This document shows positions 23,727-64,000 of a DNA stretch of 64,000 nucleotides, in pieces. The stretch comes from Bimuria novae-zelandiae CBS 107.79. Its lineage: Eukaryota > Ascomycota > Dothideomycetes > Pleosporales > Didymosphaeriaceae. Under the pieces are notes generated by a model that was not told where the DNA came from, ran no database searches, and was given only the letters and a program-made list of their open reading frames with translations. Positions within the stretch are counted from its first letter, which is position 1; the number at the start of each line of letters is the position of its first letter. The DNA is taken from contig ML976748.1 in the NCBI GenBank assembly GCA_010015655.1, forward strand, positions 139,625 through 203,624, in the 5' to 3' direction. Both the position numbers and the translations under genes were made by a program.

Positions 23727-23953
23727 TCGCGTTCATCTCAGCAAGTCAGGACCCTAGCCATAGCGGGTCCGTCCAGCATGCATGCGATGCCACGTGCGCA
23801 TGGATGTCAAGAGCGATTAAGGGGTTCACCCGCACCTCTAACCTGGACGAACTAGTGCTGTGGATGTGGTCCGTGTATCGGCTAGGGTGACCGTATTGCT
23901 ATACGCGCCTACTACAGTTAGCGCGACAGAATCACAACGCACGGTCAGATATC

Positions 23954-24538
23954 NNNNNNNNNNNNNNNNNNNNNNNNNNNNNNNNNNNNNNNNNNNNNNN
24001 NNNNNNNNNNNNNNNNNNNNNNNNNNNNNNNNNNNNNNNNNNNNNNNNNNNNNNNNNNNNNNNNNNNNNNNNNNNNNNNNNNNNNNNNNNNNNNNNNNNN
24101 NNNNNNNNNNNNNNNNNNNNNNNNNNNNNNNNNNNNNNNNNNNNNNNNNNNNNNNNNNNNNNNNNNNNNNNNNNNNNNNNNNNNNNNNNNNNNNNNNNNN
24201 NNNNNNNNNNNNNNNNNNNNNNNNNNNNNNNNNNNNNNNNNNNNNNNNNNNNNNNNNNNNNNNNNNNNNNNNNNNNNNNNNNNNNNNNNNNNNNNNNNNN
24301 NNNNNNNNNNNNNNNNNNNNNNNNNNNNNNNNNNNNNNNNNNNNNNNNNNNNNNNNNNNNNNNNNNNNNNNNNNNNNNNNNNNNNNNNNNNNNNNNNNNN
24401 NNNNNNNNNNNNNNNNNNNNNNNNNNNNNNNNNNNNNNNNNNNNNNNNNNNNNNNNNNNNNNNNNNNNNNNNNNNNNNNNNNNNNNNNNNNNNNNNNNNN
24501 NNNNNNNNNNNNNNNNNNNNNNNNNNNNNNNNNNNNNN
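23954..24538. other. Assembly gap (585 N)
   Basis: Run of N. The 11 bases GGTCAGATATC stand immediately on both sides (23943-23953 and 24539-24549), so the two contig ends overlap or flank a duplication. Confidence 0.99.
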
Positions 24539-24568
24539 GGTCAGATATCAAAGATCGGTGGTGATGGA

Positions 24569-24682
24569 CATGGGCTTAGGCTTGATTCAGCGCATCCTTG
24601 TACAGTCGCAAGAGCTTGACCCGAGACCGGGTTCACGGCATTGTTTGGTGCTTCCTCCTTCAAGAGCGGAAGAAGCCTGGGA
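24569..24682 (-). repeat. Inverted repeat, right arm (A' then B')
   Basis: Reverse complement of block A at 24569-24589, directly followed by the reverse complement of block B (about 24589-24682) with very few differences. A plain inverted repeat would have B' before A', so the order is permuted. Confidence 0.9.
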
Positions 24683-24800
24683 GCCGATCGGCTTGAACTT
24701 TAGCTCGGGAGTGTGCCCTCAAGTGTGCGCGAGTAGTTGCAGTCAGCTGTCAAGCTACTCGTTCGCTTATCGCACGGTCTCGGTCAACTTTACGTCATTA

Positions 24801-25030
24801 TGAGGAGCTCGTTTTTAGTGAAGCATAGCCAAGATTTTTCGATCAGACAACCCAAGATCAAACCCCTTTAAAAAGATTATTAAAGAAATTTAAATATGTG
24901 AGAAAATAGCACGGAATCTCTCTTTTAGCTCTTGAATTTTTATAAGTTAATATTTGATATTGCGGTTGTAATGCTGCACTGTTACATTGAAAAAACCTTG
25001 GCATATTCCTGACTAAAAACGAGCTCCTCG
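24801..25030. mobile_element. MITE-like element, Tc1/mariner type ends
   Basis: Terminal inverted repeats of about 39 bp: left GAGGAGCTCGTTTTTAGT, with the right end as its complement (CTAAAAACGAGCTCCTC). TA dinucleotides flank both ends (24799-24800 and 25031-25032). At 230 bp and AT-rich inside with no coding capacity, it fits a non-autonomous element using TA targets. Confidence 0.75.
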
Positions 25031-25482
25031 TAGAACTAGGCTTCGGAAGCTTGCCCATTCAAGTAGGTAAAGTCTGACTCAGGGATGTCACACGAGCAAA
25101 CCACGCAGAAGTAACGGATTACAGAGGAGGAGTGTGCGCTCGTGCCAATTCAAAGCGAGGCCCGTAATTCCTCTCTACCCCCGATCAGCCATGCATCGCA
25201 ATTCTGAGCTGGGTCAGCCTTTGCTCCGACCCGATGAGGGGTAAACACGGGGAAATCTTGACTACTTACGATCTCTCCTCCGCGTTGGACGCGGAACGGT
25301 ACTTTCTTAGCTTGCAGGTAGTTTGGGATCAATATTGCGTAGCTTGTACATGTGCCTCAGAGAGGACACGCGTGTTGTAAGGGGAAGCGAAAGCATATAT
25401 AGAGTGGTAAGGAGAGTCGGGGTCTCGTACCGTTATCGCAATTGTCAATTTCGCCGCAGTGGTCATCTTCCCTCTTGCCAAC
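25031..25482 (+). promoter_or_regulatory. Promoter region of the saponin-hydrolase-like gene
   Basis: A TATATA box lies at about 25395-25402, some 85 bp before the ATG. A perfect inverted repeat TCCGCGT-TGG-ACGCGGA (25279-25295) lies about 110 bp before that box and gives CCG-N9-CGG half-sites of Zn2Cys6 type. Regulator binding is inference. Confidence 0.55.
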
Positions 25483-27437
25483 ATGCACTTTGTTACAGCC
25501 TCTTTGGCGCTTAATATCATTGCCGGTGCAGCACTTCCGGCACGGAAAGCGCTGTATTATGACATCCCTCCTCCACCCAGTCCTGAGCCCATCGAAGTAA
25601 TCGAACTCCCATTGCCCCCTGTTGCGCCTAGCCTCGAGACCGGGGCGTGCACCCTGGATATTAATCCTCGGAAGACAGGATGTATCCAACGAGAGCTAGG
25701 CGACTACGAGTTCCAGGCTGGTGATTTCTCTCCGGACGGTAACCATATCATCGTCAATGTGAAATTTGTTGGCGCTCCCAAGGCACCGGATCCAGCAAGC
25801 ATATACGACGGAGAACAATTGATTTTGGTGAAGGCGGATGGAACAACATTCAACAATGGGGATACGTGGAAATGCCTTAGCTGTGCAGTCCCGGAAGGTC
25901 AGCAGAAACTATTGGATCCGCAGAGAGATTATCCGCATGTATTCCGCAGCGGTGATAAGGCGCTGTGGGGCCATAAGTAAGCCTTGTCAATCCGGTTAGT
26001 GAATTCCAAACTGACGATCGAAGCGTCCTCGACTGCAATGGGCATCAATTGGCCAGTGACGAATGCACCGCCCAGGATACTCACATCTATCCGATATACT
26101 GGGCAGTCATTCAAGACGGTGTTGAAAAGAACGGTGCCCCACGAGAATTACGCCTTCATCCGGATGATATCCATTTTGGATGGAGCTCTTTCACAAATTC
26201 TGGGGGACAAAACACTTTCTTCGGCCGCCTTCAGTTCAATGCCAACCCCGAGACCGGAAACATCCTTGCCCCCCGCTACGAGTTGGTAGATGTGAATCTA
26301 CTCTATGATCCAGCCCGGAGCCAGCGACTCACGGCTAAAGGCAAGAAGATAATGATTCATGACGATGCTATTGGTATAGGAGAGCTGCGTGGTTTCTCTG
26401 GGACAGGCGATGAGATCATTTATATTGGTCCAACATGGGAAGCCAATAACATCGATGTGTCTGCTATCCACGTCGTTACGGGTGTTGTCCGTCGCTTGAC
26501 TGAGCATCCCGAGTACACTGACCCAATCGCCTTCTCTGTGGACAATAAATGGTTTGTTGCTATGGATACCCGTGGGTCAAATCGACAGATGTTCATGTCT
26601 GGTATGCGTCATATTCCACCCCTGATCGACTTGATCACCGTTACCGTAGCGTCGTCAACTCGCAATAACGGAAACCGACGCTTCTTTCAACCGATCCTCA
26701 TTGACGGTTATGGAGACCGAGGGGACTACTTCGGCCAACAGGTCAACGCTGAGGGTGACGGAAGCGCTGGTGCGGTCAACGATCCCAACTGGAATGGTCG
26801 CGCAGACCCAGCATTCTCGCACGACGGCACCAAGATCGTGTACTGGCAAGCCATTGTCACCGGGCGAGAATGTGGCGGTCTCAATCCCCTCCCGTGTCCT
26901 GTACCAACAACCCAAGGCCAGCGCGAGTACCGCCTCATGCTTGCCCGGCTCACAAGTCGGACACCGCAGCCAGTACCTCCCGTCTTCGACGTACCGGATC
27001 AACTCCCTTGGGCTACTCCATTTCCTCCGGGCTCGAATTTTCCAAAAGACTCCCAGAGGCTCGTCGCTGGATCGTATACCTTACGTGGCAGAATCTCTGG
27101 CCATGCTATTGTCAAGCTTACCAGCTCAACGTCAGATCAGTCCAGGGGTTACGATACCGTTGCTGTCAACTATACCAATTACGCCGACGTCGAGGGATAC
27201 ATACTGAACGGGTGGGAGAAGGTTACAAGTACCATTCTGTTGCCAAATCCGTGGGACACATTGGTAGATTGGTATTCAGATATTGAGGAAACTGGTGTGG
27301 TTTCCGCAACCAAAAGGACCAGCCCAGACGGCTTCCACTTGCAGATTGATGCGGTGGCGAACATCTTTAACGCTACTGGAACGCTCACAACTACTATCAA
27401 TGGAGTTCAGTACAAGCAGCCGGCTAATGGAACGTAA
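25483..27437 (+). CDS. Secreted saponin-hydrolase-like protein (TolB/WD40-like propeller)
   Basis: Resembles the fungal saponin hydrolase family, secreted enzymes that cut the glucuronide-linked sugar chain from triterpenoid saponins and release the aglycone (for example soyasapogenol B). Exons 25483-25976 and 26024-27437; donor GTAAGC, branch ACTGAC, acceptor GAAG. The frame closes at 635 residues, about full family length. Signal peptide: MHFVTASLALNIIAGAALPA. Landmarks I recognise: DIPPPPSPEP leader, LPLPPVAPS, HIYPIYW, LRLHPDD, GFSGTGDE, RRLTEHPEYTDP, VAMDTRGSNRQMFMSGMR, NGNRRFFQP, GDYFGQ, DPNWNGRADPAFSHDGTKIVYWQA. The repeated SPDG/SHDGTKI-type text fits a beta-propeller. Several N-glycosylation sequons occur near the C-terminus. 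The stop lies only a few tens of bases before retrotransposon DNA, yet the gene looks complete. Family recognition is from memory; activity is inferred. Confidence 0.8.
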
Positions 27438-44649: not shown

Positions 44650-45064
44650 CCTCTTACTTAGCAGGTTCTGCTTCATTTGCCAGAAAAGGGATATTGAACA
44701 CTTAGGGGAATAGCCCTAAGACAACTTGCTACTAACCACTTAGGAGGGACTCAAGATACATAAAGTTAAGATAAATAGACACAAGGACGATTATTTATAG
44801 GGGCTAAAGGGAGTTAGGTCACTACTGTAAGCTATGTTATGTAGTTAGCGTAAAAAGGCCCTTTAGGCGAGCGAGCCGGGCGTAATTAATTAATTAATTA
44901 ATTAATGAGGCAGCAGGTGCGGGGCTAACGTTACCCCAAACCTTTTATGGCAGCTTTAAGGAAAGCTTCTACTCTCTGCTCTACTTTTGGTTTTATCTCT
45001 TTCTACCTTCTATAACGTATTCTTCTATATTATTCTGCCTGGCACGAGATTTATAAAAAGAGAC
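44650..45064 (+). promoter_or_regulatory. Upstream region of the micro-exon gene
   Basis: After the LINE poly(A) comes unassigned sequence, then six TAAT-type repeats (about 44885-44908). From 44920 composition is normal, and 44960-45060 is pyrimidine-rich (CT-rich runs), as in fungal promoters and 5' leaders. I see no TATA box or other gene. Confidence 0.4.
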
Positions 45065-46472
45065 ATGGAGGCCACTAACGCGCTCAACACGGTGAAGAAG
45101 GCCTTTAAGGGCCTCTTTAAGAAGAAGAGCAAGGAGAAGAAAGACGAAGCCAATCCTATAAGTAAGACCAACTCTAAACCTACCGAGACCACACCCGCCG
45201 TGGCTGCTCCTGCTACTGAAACAGCCCTAGTTGCGTCTCCCCCGGCAGAGGAGGATGGTTTACGATTTACGGTAACCTACCAGATTTATTGAGAGTAGTC
45301 TAACTTCAGCTAACAAGTTAATTAGCCAGTACGCTTTCGCAAAAAAGTAGCTTGCATTATACTAAGATGTTGTGTATTAGGAAGTATGTTAATACGCCGA
45401 CACTAAGATGCAAGGCTGCTGCTAATACGGGTGTATTGGGTAGTATAGCGTGTAAGTTAACCTGTAAACTCTGAGATGCGAGGCTGCTGCTAATGCGGGT
45501 GTGTTTAGTGGTGTAGAGTGTAAGTTAACCTGTAAACCCTAAGGTGCAAGGCTGCTGCTAATGCGGATGTGTCTATTAGTGTAGTACGTAAGTTAACCTA
45601 TAAACCCTGAGATGCAAGGCTGTTGCTAATGCGGGTGTGTCTAGTAGTGTAGGACGTAAGTTAATCTATAAACTCTGAGATATAAGGCTGCTACTAATGC
45701 GGGCGTGTCTGGTGGTGTAGTTGGTAAGTTGACCTATAAACTCTGAGATGTAAGGCTGCTGCTAATGCGGGCGTATCCATTAGTGTAGTACGTAAGTTGA
45801 CTTGCCAACCCTGAGATGTAAGGCTGCTGCTAATGCAGGTGTGTCTGGTGGTGTAGAGAGTAAGTTAACCTGTAAACTCTAAGATGCGAGGCTACTGCTA
45901 ATGCGGGTGTGTCTAGTAGTGCAGTTGGTAAGTTAATATGCAAACCCTAAGATGTAAGGCTACTACTAATGCGAGTATGTCTGGTAGTGTAGGACGTAAG
46001 TTAATCTGCAAAACCTAAGATGCAAGGCTACTACTAATAAGGGTAATATCTAGTGGTGTAGGAGGTAGGTTAACGTGTAAACTCTAAGATGTAAGGCTAC
46101 TGCTAATGCAGGTGTAACTGATAGTGTAGGGTGTAGGTTAACCTATAAATCCTGAGATGCAAGGCTGCTGCTAATATAGGTATATCTAGTAGTATAGAGT
46201 GTAAGTTAACCTATAAACCCTGAGATGTAAAGCTACTGCTAATACGGGTGTGTCTAGTAGTGTAGTTAGTAAGTTAATCTGTAAACCTTGAGATGCAAGG
46301 CTGCTGCTAATACAAGTGTGTCTAGTAGTGTAGAGAGTGAGTTGACCTATAAACTCTGAGATATAAGGCTGCTGCTAATACAGGTGTGTCTGGTAGTATA
46401 GAGAGTAAGTTAATCTATAAACTCTGAGATGTAAGGCTGCTGCTAATACGGGTGTGTCTGGTAGTGTAGATG
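45065..46472 (+). CDS. Lysine-rich protein with single-codon micro-exon tail, first part
   Basis: Exon 1 (45065-45271) encodes 69 residues: MEATNALNTVKKAFKGLFKK, then KSKEKKDEAN, a Pro/Thr/Ala-rich stretch (PTETTPAVAAPATETA) and ASPPAEEDGLRFT. No signal peptide or membrane segment; the basic helix-like start suggests nucleic-acid or membrane-surface contact (inference). Exon 1 ends on a codon boundary at GTAACC. Intron 1 is 45272-45325 (branch GCTAAC, TTAG), then CCA, intron 2 45329-45380 (ATACTAAG, TTAG), then GAA, then a series of about 65-bp units. Triplets start at 45326, 45381, 45449, 45517, 45585, 45653, 45721, 45789, 45857, 45925, 45993, 46062, 46130, 46198, 46266, 46334, 46402 and 46470, reading P,E,R,S,Y,D,L,Y,R,L,D,E,G,S,L,R,R,M. 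Without splicing the frame would stop at 45292 after seven further codons, which is the alternative model. Family and function unknown. Confidence 0.6.
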
Positions 46473-46478
46473 GTAAGT
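45384..46478 (+). repeat. Intron-like tandem array, part 1 (about 16 units)
   Basis: Units start GTAAGT (variants GTATGT, GTAGGT, GTGAGT), carry GCTGCTAATGCGG (branch-like CTAAT) about 25 bases from the end, and finish TGTAG (variants TATAG, TGCAG). Spacing is 68 bp (65 plus 3), with one 66-bp unit (45996-46061). Units differ mainly by TG/TA and CA/TA transitions. The three bases between one unit's TAG and the next GTAAGT vary; the rest does not. The array is cut at 46479 by the LINE. Confidence 0.95.
46464..46478 (+). repeat. LINE target-site duplication, left copy
   Basis: GTGTAGATGGTAAGT, repeated at 52532-52546 with one G-to-A change (ATG triplet becomes ATA). Confidence 0.85.
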
Positions 46479-49400
46479 AGTAGTAGTAGTATTGGTTTTA
46501 CGTCCTATGTAACCTCCCAGGGGGTATGTAGACGTGCCCTACACTTAGTAAAGGCCACTCATGCTAGTGCTACCGCTGCTATAGAAGCGGCCTCTCTTGC
46601 TACTGTCCCTCTCTAGATAGGGGCGACTCAGCTATTTAATCTGGCCTTTATATAATAATAGTGGGGAATGGGGTAGCCTTCTAGCTGCCCCTAGTCCTGT
46701 ACAGAAGCATGCCAAGACTTATTATAGGTAAGGAGAGATATATACACGCATATAGGTATACAAAAGAGAGAGCTTAGTCTTATATAGTAGATACCCTAGT
46801 AAGTTAAAAGCAGGTAGCGTATCTACTTTACCTAAAGTAAGGGTTTACGTCCGCTCGCCTATAACGTAGTTAGCTAGTTACTTACTAACGTGTACTATTA
46901 CTAATACTAAGTGTAAGAAAGGTTGCGTATTCTCCTAAGCTTAGCGCCCTAAGGTACTGTATTCCTTCTTTAGTGTCTATTAGGGGATGTGTTAGGCATT
47001 ATAGCTAGTAGTTAAAGCGTCGCACTGTCCGTGGGCAGTGTATAATATAGTCTAGGGCTAGGTCTGCTTTGCAGGTGCACGCGAGGGTCTTCTTATTATG
47101 CTTAAACTTCCTATAGTACTAGGCGTAGTTACTGTATCTTATCCTTATGGATAGGAGCTTGGCCAGGGCGGGGCGTATAAGCTTCAACTCCGGCAATTAC
47201 CTAGAGGGGGTGTATGCTAGGCCCTACTAGTTATATTATATAGAGAGATTTAGTGTACGTATACGCTACTACTCTTATTATATAGTGCGTACGTATGCGC
47301 GCGTATTAGATCGTAGACCTAATATTATAGGGTTAGCTACCTTTCCTATAGGTGGGCGTGGGTCCTTAGCTATCTTGTCTACTAGCTAATTAGCTAGCTT
47401 ATTGCCTTTAATGCCCATGTGGCCTGGTAACTATTAGATTTAGATATCTTAGGTGTCTATAGCTTCCTAGTAGCGTATAAAGGCCTACTAGGATAACAGC
47501 GCGGGGTCTCCCCTAATGCCCTAGATAACTAATATACTATCTAGACATATCTAGATCTGGCTTAGGCGGTGCGCCTAAGTCTATAGCACGTGTTAAAGAC
47601 CTTTCCAGGCCCCTACTACTTCTGCGTCGAAGACGTGGGCCCGCGTATTAAGGGAGCCTTTGCCTATATATAGTAGACTCTGGCCCTGGTACACAGCATA
47701 TCTATAGGTTACGTGGCGCTCGCCGTTTTCTGTGCGCTGTTCCGAGCCGTCTAAGAACACTGTAATTATCTTAGTAGGCAGGCTTGTCTACTATTATTTA
47801 AATTCTTTAGTAGCGAGCTTTTTAGGCTTATTATTTACAAGGTCTATTTGGCACTAGTTAGAATAGTGTGGTTATAGTAGTATAGGGCGGGGTACTAGTG
47901 CGAATAGCTGTGCGAGCAGTTAGACTTTTATATATAGGCGCTATAGGCGTCTAGCGCCTTTTTTTTTATATACTATAGTTAGTCGCGTGCGCGCTATAAG
48001 CGGGTGACCTTTATTAACATAGTATAGGTGTATAGCGAATCTCGCCTTACACTCTTTAAGCGCTATAGCTACTAAGGGAATGCCTGCGTCTCTATACAGC
48101 GTAGCAGTAGGCGTGGTGCGATAGGCGGAAACGACGCCTTTAACCACTATTGTAAGGGCCTTTTCCAGGGCAGCGATATACCACCTAAGTCGTATACTAA
48201 CCTTTTGGTTCTACGTAGCTCTTATAGTCTTGGGGGGCTTCGTGCGCCCTCTATACCAGGCCTCGTTTTTATATAGTAGGCGTAGCAGTACGCATGAGAT
48301 TACTACTTTACGTAGTAAGCTGGCTAGTAGGCTATGCTAGATCCTGGCAAGACTATAAATGTGCTATGCGACTACGCGTCCTTTAGCTACGTAGGTAGTA
48401 ACATGTGTTTTAAAATTAAGCTTCTTATTAAAGTAAATACCTAGCTAGCGTAGCGCCTTGTCTAGTAGTATAGATTAGAAGATAAGCTAATCGTTAATCC
48501 AGATAAGTAGTAAATAGTTACTTTTCTACTTAGTTAGGTGTATTATTTTAAGTTTCTTTAGGGCAAATGCCACGTAATTAGCGTCTCCCTAGAAATTTAT
48601 AGCGCCTATGTCTTCTACCAGCATTTCCACGTTCTAGTCTAGCAAGTAGGATTACTTATAGAGGCAGATATCGTCTGCGTACCTAAAGCGCCTGGCAGGG
48701 TCTTGCTAAAGTAGCTCTGCCAAATAAAGTGTGTATAGCACTAGTAATAGTGGTAAGCCCTGCGGCGTCCCGCACTATACTAGGTAGGGCGCTATAGTGG
48801 CTTCTCCTAATCGCACTTAGACGCGACGGTCCTAGAGGAAGTTTTTTATAATTAGGAGGGCGCTGTTATGCTATCTTTAGGCCTTTATCCTATATAAAAG
48901 TTAATTTCTAAGAAGTGCGTTAAAGGCGCCTTAGACGTCTATAGTAACTATAGTAACGTACTAGCTATTAGAGAAGGCGTCCTCTACGTTATGTATAAAG
49001 GCGGCTACTAGGTCTATAGCTAATCTCTTAGGAAGAGCCCCCCCGTGTTAGGGGCTTAGTATACCGTGTGCCATAGCAGTGCTAGTAAACCTCCTTGCTA
49101 AGATTCTCTTTAGGCCCTTACCTAGGCAGGATAGTAGGGCGATAGGTCTCTATAATCTAGGGGAGGATTTGTCCTTTTTACCTATCTTAGGTATTATAAC
49201 GACCTCTGCGACCCTCCACGCGTAGGGGAAGTAGCTAAGGGCCAGATAGCGCTAGTATAGGCTAGTAAGATACGTCTAAATATAGTGCTAGCATGTAGTG
49301 AGCATGCAGATAGTAATCCTGTCTATACTAGGTAAGGTGCTTAAGACCCCTATTATGTTACGCTTAACCTCTTTAGGGGAAAGATATAGGTCCTAGGGGA

Positions 49401-52400
49401 GGGCGTAATAGCCTTACGATTCTTAGACGTTAGGTGCTAGAGCCTCTAGTAGGTTATTACTACTATTAAAATAGCAGAGTATCGCTTATTTAAGCGTCTT
49501 AGCTTTCTCTTACGGGTCCGTAATATAGCGCCCCTTGTAGGCCAGCGGTGGGTTTAGTCTTATTAGCTTAAGCTTGTGCTAGCCTATAATTTAAAAGAAG
49601 TTAGAGTCCTTCTTTACGCTATTAATAATATGTTGCTAGTATTGTCTCTTAGCCTTTCTTACTATGGTTAGGAAGCTACGAGTCTCTAGGGTCTAGGTGC
49701 CTATATAGCCCTATCTAGACTTAAGGTGCAGGCGCCTGGCGTTAGCGCACTTATCTATTTACTAAGGTGCCACCTTCTTACTATCCCTCTTTAGGTAGCC
49801 AGTTTTGCGTAGAGTATTTTAGAGTAATAAGGTTAACGCTACGGCGCACTCTTCTACCTAGCGTAGGTTAGAAGCTACTACTATTAAGGGTAGCTATAGC
49901 ATACCTATTATAACTAGCCAGGTAAAGGGAAGAAGCTTCTTTCTAAGAAGCCTAAGGTAATATTATTTATAGCTTAGTATGCCTCTGCCTAGTAGTGTTA
50001 TAACTAGGATAGCGTAATTAAAGCTATAGTGTAGGTCGTCGCGCACCTCTATCTTAGCAAAGGCAATATTAGAGAAGCTAAGGTCTAGAACGTAGCTAGC
50101 TCTATAGGTGGCTCTGCTAGGTTCTCTAATATAGTCTATGCTACTGTCTATGGCCTAGCGCGTAAGCTCGGCGCCGCCTTATAAGGTAGTAATACTAGGC
50201 TTAAATATATCGTGCTTAGTGTTAAAGTCTCCCCCTACTAGGTATCTTACTAGGGGGGTAAGGCCTATAATATACTCTAGGACTAGTGTGGTCTAAGGCT
50301 GCCTATAGATATTAAGGATAAAGACTCTATTAACCTAAATCTATTATCTATCCCTGTCCTGCAAGGGCGCTATAGTCGTGATATAGAGCTATGCGCCTTT
50401 TAGCGTGTAAATAAGGACTCTAGGTCTCTATATCTCCCTATGCTAGGGGTTGTCCTAGCTATTAATAAGTAAGTATAGCTAGTAGCTTAGGTGGTTTAAG
50501 GTGCGGGTGCCAGGCCACGTGGCCGGCTCCTATATACATACTACGTTAATACCTTCTTAAAAAGCAAGCTCTAGGGCTGTAATATAGCTAGGCGAGCTTC
50601 GCCCTACATTTATCTAGCTAACCTATATATTACGCTCTCTAAGGGGAGTCCTTTATCTTTATAAAGGTGTGCTTAATATAAGAGATTATTCTTGTTACTT
50701 ATACTTATATCTCTCTCTAATAAGGATAAAGCTATATAATCTTAAGGTAGCGTAACGCTGCGCGCCAACATCGCCGCCAGATTTAGGTTTCTAGGGATAT
50801 AAGTGGAGCGTTATGGGCGAATAGAGGGCCCTATTAACGCCTCTAGTCCTAGGTTGCGTTACTTATTAGTGTTTACTGGCGTTGTTGTTGCGCCTGCTAG
50901 ATGTGAGCTAGGGGCAGCGGGGGCACTATATAGGCCATTACGGAGCTCTGGTAAGCTATCCTGGGCTGTCGTAGTTACTGCCTCTATTTTAGTACCTAGG
51001 GACGAGCGGTTAGCGTGCTTATAGGCCTGGTAATTAGCGCGGCGGTATATGCCTATCTCCCTCCTTATTAGCCTAATAACCTGCTTATTAACTTGGCGTG
51101 GCGCTACCAGGCAGTTAATGTGCCCTACCTAATATAGGCTAAAATAGTTAGCGCACTACACTAAATAGGTATATCCTAAGCCTAGGGGGCCTGTGTGGTC
51201 CTCTTATTTCTTGCCATAATTATTATAGCGGGGGAGGCGCACGTATTTTAGTAGGTTATAGTAGCCCTAGTAGCCTAGGTCGTGTTATTATATAGCTAGG
51301 GTTTTAATAATCTCCTTTAAGGCGCTACTATTGCCTAGGAGCCTAAATTATCGCACTTTCTTTATAAAGGAGATAATCTAGGTAATAGTTCTGTCTTTAT
51401 TAGCGCCATGCCTTAACTATCTATAGTTAATAGGTAGTGAGCCTATCTGTATGGCTACCTTATCCTCTATTATGTCGTGTGTAACTGGCACCTCTAGGCC
51501 TAGCAAGGATTAGTACGCGCTAGGGACGTTAGGTATAGTATAGTTAAACTATTTTTATAGTAGCTTAGCTATACTACCTCCTATAGCACTTATTATTAAA
51601 TCTTTCTTTCCCTGTTCTATAAGGCTGTCTCTTATCTTATTATTAGCGGGAGTGACGGCCTATCCTGTCCTAGTCTTTAAGGCGCTAAGTATAGCGCTAA
51701 AGTTAAGGCCTAGCGTGTCGCAAATAGCCTTTCTAATTATATATAGTAAGCTTTATAAAAGCCACTCCGGCGCAGGCACTATAATAAGAATCCTAAAGTC
51801 TTTAGTATCGCTTTAACTATAGTAGGTGTGTCTATTAGTAGTAGCCCTAGTGCTACTCTAGTTACTACTAGAGGTAGTGTATCTTATACTTAAGGGGTTC
51901 GCGCTAGTAGCTACGTTTACCTATATTCTTAGCTCTGTAGCCTTATTATAGTTATAGCTACTATCGCTAGCACTAGTGCTAGCGTTAGTATTAATATTCT
52001 TAGTATAGTCTATACGCAAGAGGCTTAGCGCTAAAATAGAGTTTTTTAGGGCCTATATAACGCGCTAGTAAAGGGCGTTAGTGACTGCCTGCTCTTTAGG
52101 GAGCTTATAGGCATTAAGGCAGCTATCTATAGCCTATACTAGGGTGTAGATCATGGCCTCCTAGGTGGCGATAGCTTGTTTGGCGGCTGTAATGTAGGTT
52201 ATTAGGGCTTTAGTTACTATAGTAGTAGCTAGCGCGTTTTTAGTCTACACTCCTCTACCTAGGTTAAGACGTAGTATTACTACTACATGCTACTGCAGCT
52301 ATCTCCTTAAGGGGTAGCTTATATTAAGGTGCCTCGCTAACTCTAGGTTGGCGGGGCGGGTTACTATAGAGGCTTCTAGGGGGAGTCTCGCAGGCGTCTC

Positions 52401-52529
52401 TATATTATTATTTACTAGCTACAGGCACTGCAGGGGCAGAGGATAGCTTAGAAATAGGTTTTAAGTAATTTTAAAATTAAATCTAATAAAAAATATACAG
52501 ATTTTAACAGGTTCTCATAATTTAGAAGT
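46479..52529 (-). mobile_element. Tad-like LINE inserted in the micro-exon array, RIP-decayed
   Basis: Minus strand. ORF1 remnant with knuckle-like C..C...GHINC text (51050-51170), endonuclease with YLVGGDFNTKHD (about 50210-50250), reverse transcriptase with GTPQGLPLLLVLY and FRYADDICLYK (48661-48790), RNase H with FLDGSEQRTENGERHVTY (about 47690-47770) and a Cys/His end (CTCKADLALDYIIHC, about 47040-47100). The 3' end on this strand is a short (TAC)n tail at 46479-46495. It is flanked by an approximately 15-bp duplication of array sequence. Many stops; inactive. Confidence 0.9.
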
Positions 52530-53370
52530 TGGTGTAGATAGTAAGTTAACCTATAAACTCTGAGATGCGAGGCTACTGCTAATACAAGTGTGTCTAGTAG
52601 TATAGTACGTAAGTTAATATGCAAACTCTAAGATGCGAGGCTATTATTAATATAGGTGTGTCTAGTAGTGTAGGACGTAAGTTAACCGACAGACCCTAAG
52701 GTGCAAGGCTGCTACTAATGCGGGCGTATCTAGTGGTGTAGGAGGTAGGTTAATCTGTAAACCCTAAGATACGAGGCTACTACTAATGCGGGCGTGTCTA
52801 GTGGTGTAGTTAGTAAGTCAACTTGCAAACCCTAAGATACAAGGCTACTACTAATACGGGTGTGTCTAGTAGTGTAGAGTGTAAGTTAATCTACAAATTC
52901 TAAGATGTAAAGCTACTACTAATGCAAATGTGTTTGGTGGTATAGTTAGTAAGTTAACCTATAAACTCTGAGATATAAGGCTACTGCTAATGCGAGTGTG
53001 TCTAGTGGTGTAGCGTGTAGGTTAATCTATAAACCTGAGATGCAAGGCTGCTGCTAATACGAGTGTGTTTAGTAGTGTAGGACGTAAGTTAACCTGTAAA
53101 ACCTAAGATGCAAGGCTGCTGCTAATACAGGTGTATCTAGTAGTGTAGCGTGTAGGTTAACCTGTAAACCTAAGATGTAAGGCTGCTACTAATACGGGTG
53201 TGTCTAGTAGTGTAGGAGGTAGGTTAACCTACAAACTCTAAGATGCGAGGCTGCTGCTAATGCGGGTATATCTAGTGATATAGTTAGTAAGTTAATCTGC
53301 AAATCCTGAGATGCGAGGCTGCTACTAATACGGGTGTGTCTAGTGGTGTAGTTTATAAGCTAACCTGTAA
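52530..53370 (+). repeat. Intron-like tandem array, part 2 (about 12 units)
   Basis: Resumes to the right of the LINE with the same unit. Triplets start at 52538 (ATA, duplication of the ATG at 46470), 52606, 52674, 52742, 52810, 52878, 52946, 53014, 53081, 53149, 53216, 53284 and 53352. After the duplicated one they read Y,D,E,L,S,L,R,D,R,E,L,F. Two units are 64 bp (ending at 53080 and 53215), yet the triplet length stays three. The last unit begins ATAAGC, not GTAAGC, so its donor is lost, and at 53371 the array is cut by the Copia-B LTR. It probably continues beyond Copia-B, outside the window. Confidence 0.9.
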
Positions 53371-53563
53371 TGTCGCGGTAAGCAGAGCTGGACAGTACGT
53401 AGGGAAATTAAAGGATTAAACTAAGGTTATACTATCTAGGAACTACAGAAGATATAGGTGCGCAGGCACAAACAACACTAGTCCTAGATAGGTAAAAGGT
53501 AAGTCGCAACCATGCCAAGGTAAGAGCAACTATCTTGTAAGGTAAGGGCTATAAACCGTGACA
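53371..53563 (-). repeat. Copia-B 3' LTR (193 bp)
   Basis: Near-identical over the shared 154 bp to the partial LTR at 63847-64000. Confidence 0.9.
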
Positions 53564-56500
53564 CACCCCCTAGCTAGCGTAGACTTAAAGGTCAGTAAGT
53601 CAACGATAGCTAATTAGTATTAGTATATATAGAGGGCGTTAAGATCGTCCCTATTAACCTAACGCAGTCCTTTTAGGCGCTTAGTAATATTAATAAGGCC
53701 AAGTTAGCGGACAAACTCTATAAACTTCTACTTAGGTAGAATCTTCGTGAGTCTATCGGCAGGCATATGGTTAGTAGGGACCCATTAAACGTTAATACAA
53801 GAGGCTTCAACTTCCTGTTAAATCTAAAGCTAGTGGATGTTAACATATTTAACTTTTATATAGAGCTTATCTTGTTGCTTAGTAACAATACTAACAGTCT
53901 GCTAATTATTACACTAGATAGTAAGTGTATAATTAAGCGTAAAATTAATACTAGTAAAGAAACGCATCTACTCCTCTATTTATAAGGTAGCGAGTAAGAG
54001 TAAGAGTAGTTTAGACTCTATAGTTAATTTTGTAACTATGCGCTGCACTATTAACTTCTAGTTAATTATTAGCCTACTAAACTTAAATACGTAACCTTAA
54101 AAGCTTTAACAAGTCTTAGGTTTATTAGCGTATAAGGCGTCAGATAATCTAAAAAAGAGAAGATCGCGGTATATTAGATTATTAAAGAGATACTTAGCCA
54201 CGTCTTGCGTGCTAGCAAAGGCTTCAAAAGCAAGAGCCTTTGTACTAAATAGGTAGCGCCAGGTCTAGCGTATCTTTAAGACGTGAGACTGTCCTAGATT
54301 AGTAAGATGGCAAGCAAACACAACGTGCGTTTAAGTAACGTTAGATCTGCCCTAGACAGCGATGTATGCAAGTAAGCTAACTAGTTATTAATAAAGCTTT
54401 ATTTAAGTAATATTAGGCTCCTTAGTAGACTGCGGTAGCTAGTTTTTTATAAGTAGGATGTCTAGAGCCTTGCCCACAGCCTTAATGCTAAATTAAGCGC
54501 ACACCTTATTAATAAAGGCGTCTTAGACTAGCCAGGTCTTGTGTAACGCTTAATCGCGGACGATACGGATTCCGAGAAACCAAGTAAGGTCTCCCATAGA
54601 TTTAATGTTATATAGGTCCACCAGATTCTTCTCAAAGGGCCTGTGGAGATAGGCGTTTAATCGATGAAACGCCATAATAATATTATTAACGTAGACAAAT
54701 AGGATAAGCCAGCGGCTTGTGTATAAGCAAGGAAAGCCTTTAACTAGCTTTAGACCTAGCTTAATAAGCTATCGGCGTAGCTTATTATACTATAGTAGTA
54801 ATAACTCCTTTAGGCCGTACAAGGCGCGGAGCACTAGCATAATCTCGCCTTTAGTATGGCGGAATAGCTTAGGTGTTTTAGCGTATAGCTTCTAATTAAT
54901 CTCAGCGTTTAGGAAGGTAGTAGGAACATTATACTACTTTAGCTCTAGATTAAAGTAATTAGCAATTATAATAAGAGCGCGAAAGTTATAGATCGCGAGT
55001 GTAGTAGCATACGTATTATTAAGTGGAGCTTAAAGATCTCCTCGAATAATAAGTTAAGCCTTAAACTATAAGAGGTATCCATCTCTGTCGATCTTGTACG
55101 TGAATACTTATATTAATGGTAGCACCTCAGCGTCTACAGTAGCCTTTATTTTTATAGTCTTCTTAAAGACTCCTTTAGCGCGTAGAGCCTACTATTTAAC
55201 CTCTATAACGCGTTGGAATTAATTGCCAAACATGTGTGTATTAAGCTACTTCACTACCTTAGGTAAAGGTGGTAGCTAAGACTAATAGATTCTTAGTATC
55301 TTATCTATAGTAGGTATGGTGCGAATCTCGGTCGAGAATACATAGAGATAGTTAATAAGAGGTATAGCTCCCAGCGCTATAGTATATATGTAAATTATAA
55401 AGTTATTAAGATTTTTCTGCTTTCGATTGCGTTTGCTAGTAAGGATAAGACTTGTATTATTTAGATCTAGATTAATATCTTATAGAGCTCTCTCGCCGCG
55501 TTAGCGATAGCCCTTAGGTACTTTATCACTCTTAGGAGTCTGATTACTTATGGCAGTAGACATTATAGGTCTAGAGGTAGGCAGCTATTACTATGTTAAT
55601 TTAAATACGTTATTAGTTTATTCACCCCCTACCTAGGAGCCTGCAGCTCTTAAAGCTAAGGTTATAGGTGTTTCTACTAGGTAGCGACGTTAACGAGCAG
55701 TTAATAAATCTTTAATATTAATATTATATTAATATTCCTCTAAGTATTTAAGTAGTTTAATTATTTCCTCAAGCACTAATTCTGACAGATACCTATCTAT
55801 CCTATTAAAAAAGAGTATAGGCTCAAATACAACATCGCGTGTAACGATAATAGTATCCTTTATAGGTAGCTATATACGAAAGATATTAGTGCCTTAGTAG
55901 CTAATAAGGTGGCTAATAAGAGTGCGCGATTTAAGCTTATTAGTAGCTCTTAAATCGCGATTATAGACGTAGGCGCGATAGCTAATAGGCCTTATATAAG
56001 TAATAAGTAGCTTTTGTCCCTATACAACCTCGTACGGCGTCTTCCAGCCTAGTGCTTCTGTGGGCGTGCGGTTAAGGATATACGCGGCAGTGCGATACAT
56101 CTTATGTAATAGGTTCTTTAGTAGTTTAGCGTGTATGCGCATAGCGCGAGCTCGCTATATAAGTATTCTACTAGCACGTTTAATAAGTCTATTTAGTTCC
56201 TTTATTCTAGTAGGTGCTGGCTTATACAGCATACTTAGCTCTTCTATTATGTTAATAAGGTTATTTCCAAATCCTCTCTTATTGTCGCACTAAATAGCAA
56301 CTACGTTAGCGTTATATACACGCTAGATCCTGCAGATTAAGGACATAAACTAACGTATAAGGGTTATCTTGTCTTTTCGCTTAACTGTGGCAATTTTATG
56401 CCACTTTAAGTACTTATCTATAGAGTGCAGGGCGTACTTGCTGTCGTTAATACACTCCTCTCCTATAGGGATAATGTAGATAAGGTCTATCGCGATTTAA

Positions 56501-58095
56501 TAGAACAGTTTTTGTGCGCGGCTCTTAGCCGGGCGTTTTAAAATAATATAAGTTATTTAAGTCTTAATATATATCTTATATCGACAGTCTATGTGTTCTC
56601 CAGTTAATTAAACACCTTTAACGTTTAATTTAAGATAGTTAACTGCTTTTTAGCCTAGATAGGCCTAAATATAATAAGTAGCACGCTAATTAATAACGTT
56701 AGTAGGCTTTAGCGCGTACGATAGGCGGTATAATATCCTAAACGTACTTAATAGTAAGCGTAGAAGCGATAGCGGCGGTTAATGTGACGGTTTAGTATCT
56801 ATTAGCCAGTGGCCTCTATTATACTTAAGTTAGGCGATAACGTTTAATAGTTAGCGCATATACAGGACATTATAGCTAGAGTTAAAATAGATAGACTCTG
56901 TACGGTAGCAAGCAAGTCCTAACAAGCTTATAAGAAAGCCTTTAATATATGCGACATGCGTTAACTCCAGCGTTTATATCCTATATAGTGTTTAAGCAAC
57001 GAGTTCTATCGTGCCCTAAGCTATAATTAAGATTTAGCTATTACTAGCGTGAACATAGTAACGTTGTAAATTATTATTTATCCTCTTCTAGCCATGCCAT
57101 AACTCTGTATTAATAACGTGGGTGTTTGACCCTAGATTAACGATCTATTAGTTAAGAAGCTTAGCTTTATTAGCGTCGTCTCCAACCATTACTATAAGCT
57201 CTCCGTTAGACTTAGCGTTATTATCCAATATAATTATTTTTAAATTATTGTTCGATTATTCTTCGAGAGATTCAAGAGATTTGGGCTTAAGAGAATTAGC
57301 TTAATCGATACCAATGTATAATAGGCTAGCAATTACCACAAACGTATTACTGTTCTTAGCAGGAGAATTACTATTATTAACTCGTAGTAAGCTAGTGTTT
57401 TAAGGTTATTAGGCTACCTACTTCCCGAGAGTAGTCTTAATACATATATTAATTTTAGAGTCCTTTTATGCTTCCTTAACCTTGCGTATAGCCTTAGCTA
57501 CAGGCTAATAGTCCTTTAGACGTTATAGGTGGCGTGGGTTAAGAATAAAGTAGTTAGTGTACTAATACTTCTTTCTACAGATATAGTTTCTAGGTAGCTT
57601 GTCTTAGTCACGGCTACTACCGCGATTACCTTTTATAGGCTATAGATTAACTTACTTTATAACTCTAAGCTTAGTAGTGGCTACTACTAGGCCTATTAAG
57701 TATAGCTTAGTGCGTTGTAGATATGTAGTTATCTCGGCGACGTACGTCTCTAGAGATACTATCTTAGTAGTACTACCTTGCGCTTTATGCTTAAAGATCT
57801 CGCGCAGGCAGGAAGTGGCGTATTCCTAATTAATTACCTTATAGGTAATAAGGAAGTCCTCCTATAGTTAATTACTATTAGTCTTAGGCAAGCTAATAGC
57901 CTTGCCCTAAGCTATAATATATATCTAGTTTAATAGCTATTACTTAATCTTCTTTATAGCTCGTGGCGTAGTCTTAAGAGCGTTATACTTATTAGTAAGC
58001 TCGCGGCGACGTGTCGCGTCTATAAGGCAAAAGAACTTCTTAAGTGTAATTAGTTAGTTATATAGGGTATCGTAATCCTTAATTAGGTGTATGTG

Positions 58096-61000
58096 TGTTA
58101 GATGTCACGTCTTAATAGATGTCCTGATAATTTAGGGGGTTAAATTAATGTATTAGGTTGTTCTGCCTGTCTACGGGGTTCCCTCGGCAGGTTCTATGTG
58201 TTCTTGGTTAATCCCTGGCCTTTTTCGGGCTACCTCTAATCCTCCGAACTTGATATGCTTTTTATCTGACACACCCCCTTAGCTTAGAGCCGTTCGAGCC
58301 ATAGCTAAGGTTATCAGACAAGGGTGAGGTTATTAAGCTAGTTTTAAATCTCCTCTAAAGGTGCTTTATTAGCTACCTTTCGATTCCTTACCTCCACTAG
58401 TCCTAGTTACTTTAGGAAGTTCTGCCACTAATTTACCAAGAGTGCTTTAGTTAAGCTATCTATAATTATCTTTATAGATTTAGTGTATTCCACCTTTATC
58501 CTTCCCCTGGTTACTTCCTATCGGAGCTAGTAATTATGTATATTAACGTGTCGAAGCTTCGTATGCAGCTTTGAGATCTCCTGCGTTACTAGCCAAATAG
58601 TTTACTAGTTATTACATTAGATTATAATAGTAGGGCTAGGTAGCTTAACTTTTAGTTCCTTTATTAATCTTAATATAAAGATAGCTTCCTTTGCGACTTG
58701 CGCCAGAGTAAGGAGCTTAGCTTCTATAATTAATATAGTAATAGTGTCTTGTTTGCTTGCACGCCATGTAATAAGGCCGTTAAATAGCTTAATAGCGTAG
58801 CCTTACGAGCTCTTACGGTCTAGAGTGTTATCTATAAATAAGGTATTACTTGCTACCTGCAAGGATTCGCCTCCTCTAAGTTAAAGTGTCTTTTACTTTA
58901 TTTTGTTAAGGTACAGCAGGGCTCGGTCAGCCGCATAATAATATTCTAGACTAGGATTTAATAAGAATCTTGCTAGCCTTAAGGTTGCGAATATAATATC
59001 TAGTTAGGTACTAATAGCTGCATATAAGAGTGATCCGATCTTACGTTAGTATTTATTAATGTTTATAAGCGAAGCTAGCCCTTCTCTTGGCTTAAGCTCC
59101 CCTATGCCCATTAGGGTGTCATGTTAAATTGTTTAGTCATTAACTAGCCAGCTAATTTTATCATAGTATGCGGCCTAAGAGAGTTAAATAAGTTAGTTCT
59201 GCTAATCTCTAATTACTTTAATTCCTAGGAACTATAGTAGGTCTTCTCCGCCTATTATTAAGTATTTCTTCCTAAGTTGTTCTACAACTTACTAAGCTTA
59301 GCTAGCTTTATCTTAGTAGTGCGCAATAATAATGTCGTCTACGTAAAAAATAATAATAATACTATCCTTAATCATGTAGCATGGCTTATGGGGCATAGTC
59401 TAGAAACTAAACTTAATAAGCGTAGCTATAAACTCTTTTTACTAAAAAAGTAATAAGATTCGCAGTCCGTAGAGTGCCTTCTAGACTTTAAGAACAGTAC
59501 TAGGTTTTTAATATCCAGGCGGCATGCGTATATAGACTTCTCGATCTAGTAATGCGTGTATAAACGCGTTAGTAACGTTATATTATATAAGTTCGAGGTT
59601 ATATTTAGTAGTAATTACTATAAGTAAGTAAAAGGATCTTCTAGCTAATATTGCTGCGTAGGTGTCCTAGGAGGTTATATTACGTTATTAGTCTCCTTTA
59701 ACTACTAGTCGCGCTTTGCACTTAATAAACTAGTAATATTTATTAAACTTATACACATACACCTATATATAGTCTAGAATTTGTTGGCCTATTGCCTTTA
59801 CTATCTTGTACGGTACTTCTATCTAGGATTAGGTAATTCTATAACTATCTAGATGCGATTGCTGCGCTTCCCGGAATAATTCTCCTATTAGATATTAGTT
59901 AAGGTCTATTTTATAAGTGGGTGGCAGAGGTAACTATAATTAGTGAATCTTAACGCCCTTTACTAGTAGTCTTTTTATCTAGGCTTTGTTAATTATGTTC
60001 TTATTGTGTTTTCCAACTCTTCCTGCTTCCGTTCCTGCCATAAAAGCTGCTGCCTAGGGGACTGTCTTAGATAAAGTAATCTCGGGTAGGTTTATATTTT
60101 CCCCTGTTATTAGCTATGCTAGCAGAGCTATAGGTAGTAGAGTTAAAGGTAGTGTTAAGTAGTAATCTCTGATCTTCCTTCCTCGATAGTAGCCTAATAG
60201 GTCTACTTCGTCCTTTGTGGGTAATTCGTTTTCTGCGACATCGTCTTCGTAGAATAATTCGGTTTCTGGTTGGTGCACTAGTGGTGGTAGCTTAATTATC
60301 TTAATATATATAGCTATCTTAGCTAGCGTATTGTGCATAACGTTATCTATTAGATCCTTTATCTTCCTGTTAAAGATTATATTTTTATTAAATACGACGT
60401 CTCGCGTGCTGATAACCTTGGCCAGCGTTAGTATCTATATTTAGTAAATGTTTAATAACTAGTATCTGATAAGGTATCCAATCCATGCTTTAGGGTCGAG
60501 TCGTTATAGTCTTAATTTTCTATAGTAGGTATTATCTATTATAGCGAATGCTTTGCATCCGTACGCCTTTAGGTAGGCTAAGTTTAGTTTCTTAATAGAC
60601 GTAACGATCCTATTAGCTAGTAGTACTCGTGTGAAGAATATCTTATATAGTGTTTTCTAGTTATTCGTGTAGTTTAGCGTTTAATTGTATAGATACACTC
60701 TAGCTCTTGTAATTTTAGGCCAGAGTTCCCATGGAAGGTTTGCGTCCAGACGCATTACGCGAGATTTTTTTTTATTTACGCCCCCTAAGCGTTTAGCGCT
60801 ACTATTTTAAGCTTACGTGTCTAGTACTAAAGGCTCGATAATTATGCCTAGGCTTTTTAGCTACTACTTAACTTCGGGTTTGACTGTGGTAATCTTATTG
60901 TCTGTTTTAATAACTTTTAGAGTGATGTCATATTAGTTCTTAAGAAATCTAAAGAAGATTGTTAATGTTTTAATAATTAATCTTACCGTTCGGTTATCCG

Positions 61001-63304
61001 TGAAGTAGAAGTCCTATTAGAGACTAGAATATCTATCTGTAACGAGCATCTAGCTCTTCTCTTTATTAAACGATAGTAATTCGTAGGTGTAGAAATTAAT
61101 AGAAAGCCTTTCTACGGGTCCTTGCTTATTAATCCTAGGTACGCGGCTTATCTGCCTTCGCATCTTTACTCTTCTATATAAGTTACACTTTACTATTATA
61201 ATTCCCTTAACTCGCACCCCCTTAGCTCGCTGCACTAGGTGCTTAATTACGGCGGGTCCTAGATAACTAAGCCTTTTGTGCCATAAGAGGGCTAATGCTT
61301 TTTAAGGTTGTTATTACGTTTAAGAATTGTAAGAATGCGTATAGTGCGCTGTATAGTGCACGGGTTAGTGTTCTAATACCTATTATCTATAAATTTTAGT
61401 AAGCTTTCTAATAGTTATTCTATTTAGTCGCTTTAGGGTAGTAGGCTCTAATTAGATATCCTACTAGAATTCCTTCTGCCTTAGCACTTAGAAGGAGACT
61501 AGGTTACATAGCATGTCTAGGCATATTGCTACGTTATATAGTACTAGTCTTTTAGCTCCCTATTTATGTTTTAGGTTTAAGATAATAGTTCCGTATCCCT
61601 TTACCTAGATTTAAGTGTCGCTTGCCTATATAAAGTCGCCTTGTGTAGGTGGCTAATAGTTCTAAATCTAGTTAGGGTTATTCGTGATGTGGCACGTCGA
61701 GCCCGAGTTAAGGATAAAAGAACGCTAAAGAGGATAGTTAAATTGGTCTATAATAAAGGTCGCAGAATAGGCGGCTTACACCTTTAAAATCTATTTTCTA
61801 TTTAGTCACTAATTAGTAATCTCTGGAGTTGGGGTATAGGAATTCTTAAAGGATAGAGTCTTGGTTCTAGGTCTACTTTAAGCTCTTAGTAGACTTTAAA
61901 AATCGGCATCGTGCTCTTGTTTTAGAGCAACGTATTTAGCTATTCTTAGGTTTAGCTCCTACTATTCTAGTGCTTTGTCTAAGTAGAGATAGAAGTATTC
62001 CCTAATAGGGTGTCTTATATTGCAGGCTAGACACTTGGCAGTTTTATTAGTGCCTACTCTAGTAGGTTTACCACGATTAGCGTCCGCTTTAGCGGAGTTA
62101 CTACTACCTTATTAAGGGTTTAAAGAGCTTAAAGGTGCACGATCATCATCCTTCACAGCTATACGTTAATGTTAGGGTCTACCCCGTTTTGTACCCTAAG
62201 AGTTTCCTATTTCTATATATTAGGGATCCCCTTGCATGCTCTGGGCAGCTTAGCTACTTTTAGCGAGATAAGATAAGTCTTTTATTATAAACGCTACCTT
62301 TTAGCTTCTATTTCGCGTTATTAGATAATTTAGCATTATATATTCTCGGAAACGTCCTATTATGTCCTTTCGGTCCATGCCAGGTAGGTCCTTTCCATTT
62401 AATTAGAAGGTTGTAGCCTATACTAGAGCTATCTTGTTTACTACTAACATAAAGTCTACAGCCACAGGATTAAATTGTGTGGTATCAGACACGTTTAGTG
62501 TCTTAGCCTTTATTATAGCATAATTATATTTAGTAAGTTATGTGTCCTAGTTATTTACTATGCGTAGAGGCTTTAACAAGCTATAGTATCGCTGTCGCGC
62601 TTGCTCTTATTTAAACTTAGAAGTAACTCCTACTTTTGCTTTTAGCTTTATAATCTATTCTTTAATAGTAGTATTTAGGAGATAGTAAGTGCGTTGTAGA
62701 TACAGTGCTACTAATAACTAGATAAACACTACGATCTGCTGTAAACTTGCGACTTTAGTCTTATACTTTGTGTACTACATCTTGTATTTCTCTATCTAGA
62801 GTTTATAGAGGTCTAAATCCTCTTTATAGCTCTTTAGTCTAGCGGATAAAAGTTTAGATAGTCTTAATAGTAAGACGCCGTCTGGAAGGGTTGCGGCTAG
62901 CGTATAGTCTACTGTCTTAGGTAGCTCGGGCTCAAATGGCTCCGTGAGTGGGGTGATTGCTAAATTAGGGTCGACTTACGCCTATATATTGTATGCGACG
63001 CAGCGGGCTTATAGTTAGTTAAGCTAGCTATAGTATTTAGTGTTATCGCGAAGAATAATCGTTTTGTTAGTTTAATTTAGGTTTTAGGTTACTATTTTCG
63101 CTCTTGTTGAGGCAGTGAGACTCTTAATTATTAAATATTACGTCTTAATAGATGTCCTAATAATTTGGGGGGTTAAATTAATGTATTAGGTTGTTCTGCC
63201 TGTCTACGGGGTTCCCTTGGCAGGTTCTGTGTGTTCTCGGTTAATCCCCGGCCTTTTTCGGGCTACCCCTGATCCTCCGAACTTGATATGCTTTTTATCT
63301 GACA
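58096..63304 (-). mobile_element. Copia-3: complete copy of the Copia-1 family nested in Copia-B
   Basis: Minus strand, 5209 bp, the same length as Copia-1. LTRs 58096-58271 (3') and 63129-63304 (5'), 176 bp each. A perfect 5-bp duplication ATGTG lies at 58091-58095 and 63305-63309. The complement of the polypurine tract (CACCCCCTTAGCTT) adjoins the 3' LTR. The interior shows the same gag knuckle, protease, integrase, RT and RNase H remnants as Copia-1, with stops; the longest open piece is an integrase-downstream segment at 60114-60338. The outer end of the 5' LTR is itself RIP-altered (TGTTAGATGT to TATTAAATAT). Confidence 0.95.
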
Positions 63305-63846
63305 ATGTGACGTGTAGTAATTATCTTACTAATATTTATATTTAAGTTAGCTAGTGCCTTTACTTAAGTGTAATACTTAGTACGGCGGCGTTCTTATTAA
63401 TTGTATTCCTATTAATAGGAATCTTAATTATTAGCGGATAAGTAAGAGAGTCTAGTAGCTTTAAGCTTATAATTAGTAAGTTAAGGCTTAAGAGGCTCCT
63501 ATAGCTTAGGGAGAGTCTCTTTTGCTATATTAAGGTTAATATATTACTAGAGGCTATGTCGATTAGCGATGTCTTAGCGAATAAATAACTAGGTAAACTA
63601 GTTATTTAGTATGTTTAGGACAATAGTAACTCGCGTTATAGTAAGGTCGAACTCAGTAGCTATTACAGAGGCTACAGTCAATAGTATTTAATAGATCTAG
63701 GCAGAGATCCTAGTATGTGCGCTATAAGGATGCGCAAGTAAATAGGTGCGTTATAGAAAACGCGGTATAGCAACGTGCGACTCGTAAGTAAAGTAACGTT
63801 ATAATAGCAGGTAAGAATAATCCTAGGTGCAAGCCGGGCTTATAAC

Positions 63847-64000
63847 TATCGCGGTAAGTAGAGCTAGACAGTACGCAGGGAAATTAAAGGATTAAACTAA
63901 GGTTATACTATCTAGGAACTACAGAAGATATAGGTGCGCAGGCACAAACAACACTAGTCCTGGATAGGTGGAAGGTAAGTCGCAACCATGCCAAGGTAAG
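63847..64000 (-). repeat. Copia-B 5' LTR, truncated by window end
   Basis: First 154 bp (plus-strand reading) of the LTR seen at 53371-53563. Confidence 0.9.

Follow-up and report, generated by a model that had tools for sequence, protein, structure and literature searches.

The DNA analysed here, called the window, is a stretch of 64,000 nucleotides from Bimuria novae-zelandiae CBS 107.79 (Pleosporales). Its contig is designated C93, and other contigs of the same genome are named in the same manner. The locus of interest begins with a short exon, which is followed by two predicted introns of unique sequence and by tandem intron-like units separated by single triplets. Two insertions interrupt it. 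In window coordinates, its features are the following.

44947..45069, forward strand: upstream region and start codon, resembling the stretch 5' of the array on C24
45065..45271, forward strand: exon 1, 69 codons, basic, rich in A, P and T, in phase 0 at its end
45272..45383, forward strand: two unique predicted introns, with one codon after each
45384..46478, forward strand: array A, 16 units, with codons at 45449 to 46472
about 46479-52531, reverse strand (guessed): insertion of about 6.05 kb, limits approximate, with the target site on both sides
52532..53354, forward strand: array B, consisting of a second target-site copy (ATA), 11 units and then TTT
53366..64000, no strand assigned: second insertion, which continues beyond the window and bears a direct terminal repeat at 53373-53524 and 63849-64000

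The repeat unit consists of an intron-like sequence of about 65 nt, GTAAGT...CTAAT...YAG, plus one triplet. As the first-pass annotation of this DNA had described, exon 1 comprises 69 codons and ends in phase 0 (45065-45271). It is of low complexity and, judged by eye, has no signal-like start. The two introns that come next had been given as 54 and 52 nt long, distinct from the repeat, and yielding CCA and GAA. This reading agrees with what was found: predicted intron 1 occupies 45272-45325 and is followed by CCA at 45326-45328, while predicted intron 2 occupies 45329-45380 and is followed by GAA at 45381-45383.

Array A extends from 45384 up to a donor at 46473 in 15 units of 68 bp and one of 69 bp. 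Its codons are CGT AGT TAC GAC TTG TAC AGA TTG GAC GAG GGT AGT TTA AGA AGA ATG. Array B (52541 up to a donor at 53287) has nine units of 68 bp and two of 67 bp; its codons after ATA are TAC GAC GAG TTA AGT TTA CGT GAC CGT GAG TTA, and then TTT (53352-53354), the last triplet, after which the donor is altered to ATAAGC. Both arrays are tiled by units without gaps, and every unit ends in YAG plus 3 nt. The 28 donors after array codons read GTAAGT (20), GTAGGT (6), GTGAGT (1) or GTATGT (1), and a CTAAT-like branch site can be recognized by eye in nearly all units.

About 30 exons of three bases had been proposed between the units. The 3-nt anatomy and the constant phase 0 stand, but the 31 triplets listed amount to 30 distinct codons, because ATG (46470) and ATA (52538) each belong to a copy of the same target site. 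No stop occurs among the 30, as had been claimed, and unspliced read-through from exon 1 does meet the stop that had been placed there (45290-45292).

The target site, GTGTAGATRGTAAGT, flanks the insertion of about 6.05 kb on both sides. Pfam searches with two of the five open reading frames in this insertion returned nothing significant. The direct terminal repeat of the second insertion is 152 bases long with 96% identity and is cut at the window end; the element is likely an LTR retrotransposon. It is followed by 1070 N (C93:203625-204694), by one further unit and by the HET exons described below. With two insertions breaking it, the window copy has likely become a pseudogene.

The remainder of the window includes a GC-richer gene island (15886-27437), with about 50% GC at 16-24 kb and 31-43% in most other parts. 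Its long open reading frames resemble, by eye, a putative sugar transporter, a rhamnosidase and a beta-glucosidase, and a run of 585 N occupies 23954-24538.

Related arrays were sought in the whole genome (77.4 Mb, 191 contigs). They are found on C93, both in the window and at C93:204695, and on C24, C55 and C141, with decayed pieces on C40. The region 44947..45069 aligns locally with the stretch before the C24 array at a score of 129, the maximum among 1000 shuffles being 49. The C40 piece (L012:5100-7150, minus strand) is split by an element of about 1.9 kb with ends that appear inverted by eye.

A pattern blind to the repeat sequence (YAG, 3 nt, GTAAGT, then 35-60 nt, then again YAG, 3 nt, GTAAGT; GTAAGT donors only) gave 52 matches in the genome, all of them in arrays of six contigs (C24 3, C27 2, C55 4, C90 24, C93 14 and C141 5); the reversed control gave one. 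A broader pattern of two donors with a spacer of 0-30 nt was rejected as uninformative: its 273+291 matches compared with 67+69 for the control, and the part listed consisted mostly of dispersed repeats. Two acceptors in the arrays differ from YAG, namely GAG in C24 and AAG in C90.

The matches on C90 and C27 lie in arrays of a common intron family that shows no detectable relation to that of C93. Homology between the 68-bp and 72-bp families was not detected (p 0.13; p 0.77 for the 5' part). The C90 array (C90:63249-65619, minus strand; L046:5250-7620) comprises 31 units, 22 of them of 72 bp, with one codon each, and C27 carries a short decayed relative. DNA searches with both families returned only arrays and the decayed C40 copy among the best candidates scored.

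Exon 1 matches itself in the genome and one other place at E 8. It matched no Pfam family, the best weak match being at E 2.9, and a protein search with exon 1 and its read-through gave two candidates, neither at E <= 1. A plasmid DNA collection had no match, and none of 13 candidate stretches in a viral collection was a related locus. In the GTDB collection, five of 17 candidates were distant HET genes with 28-34% identity in bacterial bins, and no chain of at least four units was found there. The bins that encode these HET-domain relatives are labelled Hymenobacter or Deltaproteobacteria (L050-L054), and contamination of the bins by fungal DNA is likely.

Evidence for the kind of gene to which the window copy belongs is provided by C141, where a diverged paralogue lies. 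At this locus a 12-codon exon 1 is followed by a 51-nt intron, AGT, a 53-nt intron, GTT, a unit and 341 N. After the gap come TAT CTT CGA GTT CGA, a 52-nt intron and a phase-0 exon beginning PDVWHSSFDSTFAQ, and then a HET domain. The C141 gene (L013, C141:17392-20279) has the 341 N inside its array, so that part of its codons is unread. As on C93, two unique short introns come first, each with one codon; similarity between the two genes is slight for intron 1 (p 0.04) and was not detected for intron 2 (p 0.58). The C141 array gene shows no break comparable to the insertions of the window copy.

On C93 past the second insertion, a unit of the same family is followed by GAG, a 58-nt intron, GGT, a second 58-nt intron and a phase-0 exon beginning YQNWSIYFDNSFSR, and then by a HET domain. 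The starts of the HET exons of C141 and C93 can be aligned by eye on W, FD and F (PDVWHSSFDSTF and YQNWSIYFDNSF, respectively). The HET profile (PF06985) matches at E 2.3e-28 and 3.2e-29, scoring 99.8 bits in C141 and 102.6 bits in C93 past the window, with a curated cut-off of 22.5. There is no in-frame methionine in the 108 residues of the C141 exon or in the first 50 of the C93 exon.

Annotated gene models begin further downstream. For the C93 HET gene, NCBI gives a protein marked as partial whose start lies in the second HET-gene exon, and the models examined in Alternaria, Pyrenophora and Lindgomyces begin at the corresponding position or shortly before it. Used as a genome query, the N-terminal HET exon found C93, C141 (6e-12) and a weak third match on C121 at E 0.09. 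In a wider query it was found in one of 56 candidates, from Zopfia, where the start is an internal methionine. The HET profile has at least 151 matches in the genome (best 150 of 325 candidates), and the micro-exon design is therefore rare among HET genes.

These comparisons make it likely that the window contains the 5' part of a HET-domain gene, a type known from fungal nonself recognition. The continuity of the window arrays and the HET exons as one gene is inferred across the insertion and the 1070 N that lie between them. Only a small fraction of HET-domain genes is described as acting in allorecognition, in the accessible part of one source (PMC10197012). The first-pass annotation had treated the array as a protein tail. 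This is probably not the case, since the C141 array stands between a short first exon and the exons of the HET domain, and past the window in C93 an array of the family likewise leads in phase 0 to HET exons.

The C90 gene is of a different kind. Its exon 1 has a hydrophobic start that looks like a signal peptide by eye, and the 31 codons after it have the cysteine spacing C-x2-C-x4-C-x5-CC-x2-CC-x3-C-x5-C (permutation 0.0004, in a test designed post hoc). Searched against Pfam and PDB, the codon string had its best matches in conotoxin families, which were not significant (E 0.41 and 0.65, respectively). A small secreted cysteine-rich peptide is the likely product. With the last codon of exon 1 included, C90 has 32 triplets and C93 has 30, each set being an in-phase series of predicted 3-nt exons.

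To compare the variability of triplets and introns, units were aligned on the intron sequence and the three columns of the predicted exon were set against the intron core, splice-site columns being excluded. In C93 (27 units), pairwise transversions amount to 0.513/0.399/0.519 in the triplet columns and average 0.019 in the core, with a maximum of 0.262, so that none of 56 core columns matches any triplet column. In C90 (31 units) the values are 0.512/0.473/0.232 against a core mean of 0.086, and 1, 3 and 7 of 60 core columns are no less variable than the first, second and third triplet position, respectively. A sliding window of three columns ranks the exon triplet first of 68 in C93, of 72 in C90 and of 68 in C24, C55 and C141 combined, that is, in all three groupings. 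Differences among C93 introns are mainly transitions (0.183, against 0.019 for transversions), as would be expected from repeat-induced point mutation (RIP). RIP makes no transversions, and those in the triplets are therefore not of its making.

Homologous arrays elsewhere with spacers often other than 3 nt, or with frequent stops, had been named as a finding that would speak against micro-exons. The arrays speak in favour instead. There are no stops among 82 triplets in six arrays (P 0.0028, three positions shuffled independently), made up of 30 from C93, 32 from C90, eight from C24, seven from C141, two from the last C93 units and three from C27; C55 is excluded because it nearly duplicates C24, and so is the ATA of the second target-site copy. 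The 30 of C93 have a probability of 0.022 of containing no stop, and C93 is the sole array in which this is unlikely by itself. The spacer stays at 3 nt while unit length ranges over 66-75. In 15 sequences (241,513 bases per strand), seven chains of at least four units have a 3-nt spacer and three have other spacers of 0-12 nt, and these three (spacers of 8 nt in one and 11 nt in two) fall within the very window arrays. Taken together, anatomy and comparison support the micro-exon reading well.

Change in the number of units can be observed directly. C24 and C55 have in common the start region, the codons AGA GAA GGG TTT GGC ATA GAG and the downstream sequence; C24 has one extra unit, with codon AAC. 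The C55 unit at this position is chimaeric: it agrees with the first C24 unit at sites 11, 14 and 19 and with the second at sites 29, 39, 49 and 67-69, with the exceptions of site 34, which is contrary, and site 60, which is like neither parent. One whole unit, and with it one codon, has thus been gained or lost through a junction inside an intron. Such a chimaera is the outcome that unequal crossing-over inside an intron would give, adding or removing one codon with the frame kept, and the data are compatible with either direction. The earlier proposal that recombination in intron repeats shifts the product by one whole codon is thereby borne out for this pair.

The two copies (C55:73612-81772 and C24:558739-559404; L009 and L010) form a duplicated segment with a truncated array gene, which has an 8-codon first exon and 7 or 8 codons seen. 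No HET exon is listed nearby, and the start codon of the C55 copy is separated from its array by an insertion of about 7.6 kb.

The composition of the arrays also bears on their origin. The 27 triplets of C93 fall into 9 kinds when TTA is merged with TTG and ATA with ATG, whereas equally long runs of HET codons have at least 17 and position-shuffled sets at least 14; founder units that multiplied explain this better than introns that entered an old coding run. The 31 triplets of C90 are of 16 kinds, which is few beside the HET-run minimum of 19 but in keeping with position shuffling (p 0.14). GTAGGT donors follow GAG in three of three cases, GGT in one of one and CGT in two of three (permutation p 0.001, chosen post hoc). 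Units with the same codon hardly share intron variants (one of eight tests with p 0.02, none of the others below 0.05), and any signal of block duplication is therefore blurred. The closest intron pair in C90 differs at one site, yet its codons, TGT and GTT, differ at two. A signature at the third codon position in C90 was weighed as well and set aside.

Minisatellites in introns are common, and the repeats might be merely intron-like parts of one long intron, with exon 1 joined directly to the HET exon. A single intron of about 890 bases in C141 (4428-5313, including the 341 N) would likewise keep phase 0. Such a minisatellite would not be expected to place its most variable columns exactly on the predicted exon in three groupings, to avoid stops in every triplet, to hold one length constant at 3 while the unit varies, or to follow the same rule in an intron family without detectable relation; it is an improbable explanation. 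A still smaller chance is given to young intron copies having entered between old ordinary codons, as in introner-like elements, with no generation of diversity. Near-identical introns do surround diverse codons here, and such elements have been reported from dothideomycete fungi (PMC4457414, in its accessible part). Insertion in phase 0 after each single codon, however, would need an unknown targeting rule; the 9 kinds of triplet in C93 fall well short of an ordinary HET codon run, and related introns were found only in arrays and in no other genes among the best candidates.

The micro-exons could also be real and spell a loosely constrained linker, in which codons drift and recombination homogenizes the introns in the absence of selection for diversity. 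The even third position of the C93 triplets (T7 C7 A7 G6) and the low complexity of exon 1 are consistent with this. Homogenization should erase codon differences too, however, and transversions in the triplets are over 20 times as frequent as the core average; the C90 codons, moreover, form a regular cysteine pattern (by the post hoc permutation given above). A linker of this kind is unlikely, if somewhat less so than the other two explanations.

The claim of the first-pass annotation that no gene of this type had been described is too strong. In Tuber melanosporum, according to the accessible parts of PMC4986451, PMC3689799 and PMC10197012, which cite Iotti et al. 2012, NACHT-ANK genes diversify via alternative splicing of codon-sized micro-exons of 3 bp, numbering 'tens' (PMC3689799). 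The truffle nank genes resemble the genes described here in having tens of serial 3-bp exons in a fungal gene of the nonself-recognition type and in the proposed diversification of the protein. They are NACHT-ANK receptors and involve alternative splicing, whereas a Pfam search of exon 1 and of the initial two exons of the HET gene in C93 and in C141 gave HET and no NACHT or ANK, so that the NACHT and ankyrin combination of the truffle type is absent from these parts. Set against these partial accounts, Bimuria adds a gene for a likely secreted cysteine-rich peptide and gain or loss of units in the DNA. The accessible part of PMC11121469 states that no functional micro-exons had been described in filamentous fungi before 2024; the truffle case therefore seems not to have been widely noticed. 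PMC5913888 was discarded as a precedent, as 'microexon' in its accessible part denotes an aligner option only. No paper on arrays of this sort in HET-domain genes or in Bimuria was found in the literature searched, which was mostly non-subscription.

Other systems are similar in some respects, as far as the available portions of the sources describe them. Schistosoma MEG genes also have many short exons, mostly multiples of three, that are invisible to automatic annotation. Their exons measure 3-81 bp according to the abstract (6-81 in the text) and their introns 100-5000 bp (PMC10526429), whereas here all array exons are 3 nt and introns about 50-72 nt; the varied micro-exons, long introns and secreted product of the schistosome type are not found in the window gene. 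The WD, ANK and TPR repeats of Podospora nwd, het-d and het-e genes likewise combine concerted evolution with few hypervariable positions and recombinational shuffling, but there the repeat is protein-coding, and here the homogenized repeat is an intron with one coding codon per unit (PMC4986451). Fungal introner-like elements are also near-identical introns multiplied in one genome (PMC4457414). In Bimuria the near-identical introns are tandem within a gene and confined to few arrays as far as searched, and no dispersal of one intron over many unrelated genes was seen among the best candidates scored.

The window thus probably contains a broken copy, likely the 5' part of a HET gene, in which, on the predicted structure, at least 30 residues each have an exon of a single codon between tandem introns. 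In the proposed mechanism, the introns would be spliced out, and the joined codons would form a variable segment ahead of the HET domain. Being near-identical, the introns would serve as recombination spacers, within which unequal crossing-over or conversion could add, remove or swap single residues with the frame intact. Selection for diversity would keep the codons different while the introns are homogenized, and skipping of 3-nt exons in the RNA could yield extra variants.

A generator of diversity in DNA, working residue by residue both in HET recognition proteins and, with an intron family of no detectable relation, in the C90 gene for a secreted cysteine-rich peptide, is put forward tentatively and falls a little short of an even bet. 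Such a role is plausible, given the one direct footprint in the DNA of C24 and C55. New with respect to the known systems are the class of HET genes, the second array spelling a putative secreted cysteine-rich peptide, and the footprint at the DNA level.

Gene finders are unlikely to detect exons of 3 nt, and HET models are partial or start late; such arrays may therefore be overlooked elsewhere. They would also probe how the spliceosome handles dozens of consecutive 3-nt exons. The diversification of HET-domain genes has been called an open question (PMC10197012, in its accessible part). If the arrays are spliced as predicted, they would offer a readable locus for what diversifies these genes, and the intron array would act as a device for mutation in steps of exactly one residue.
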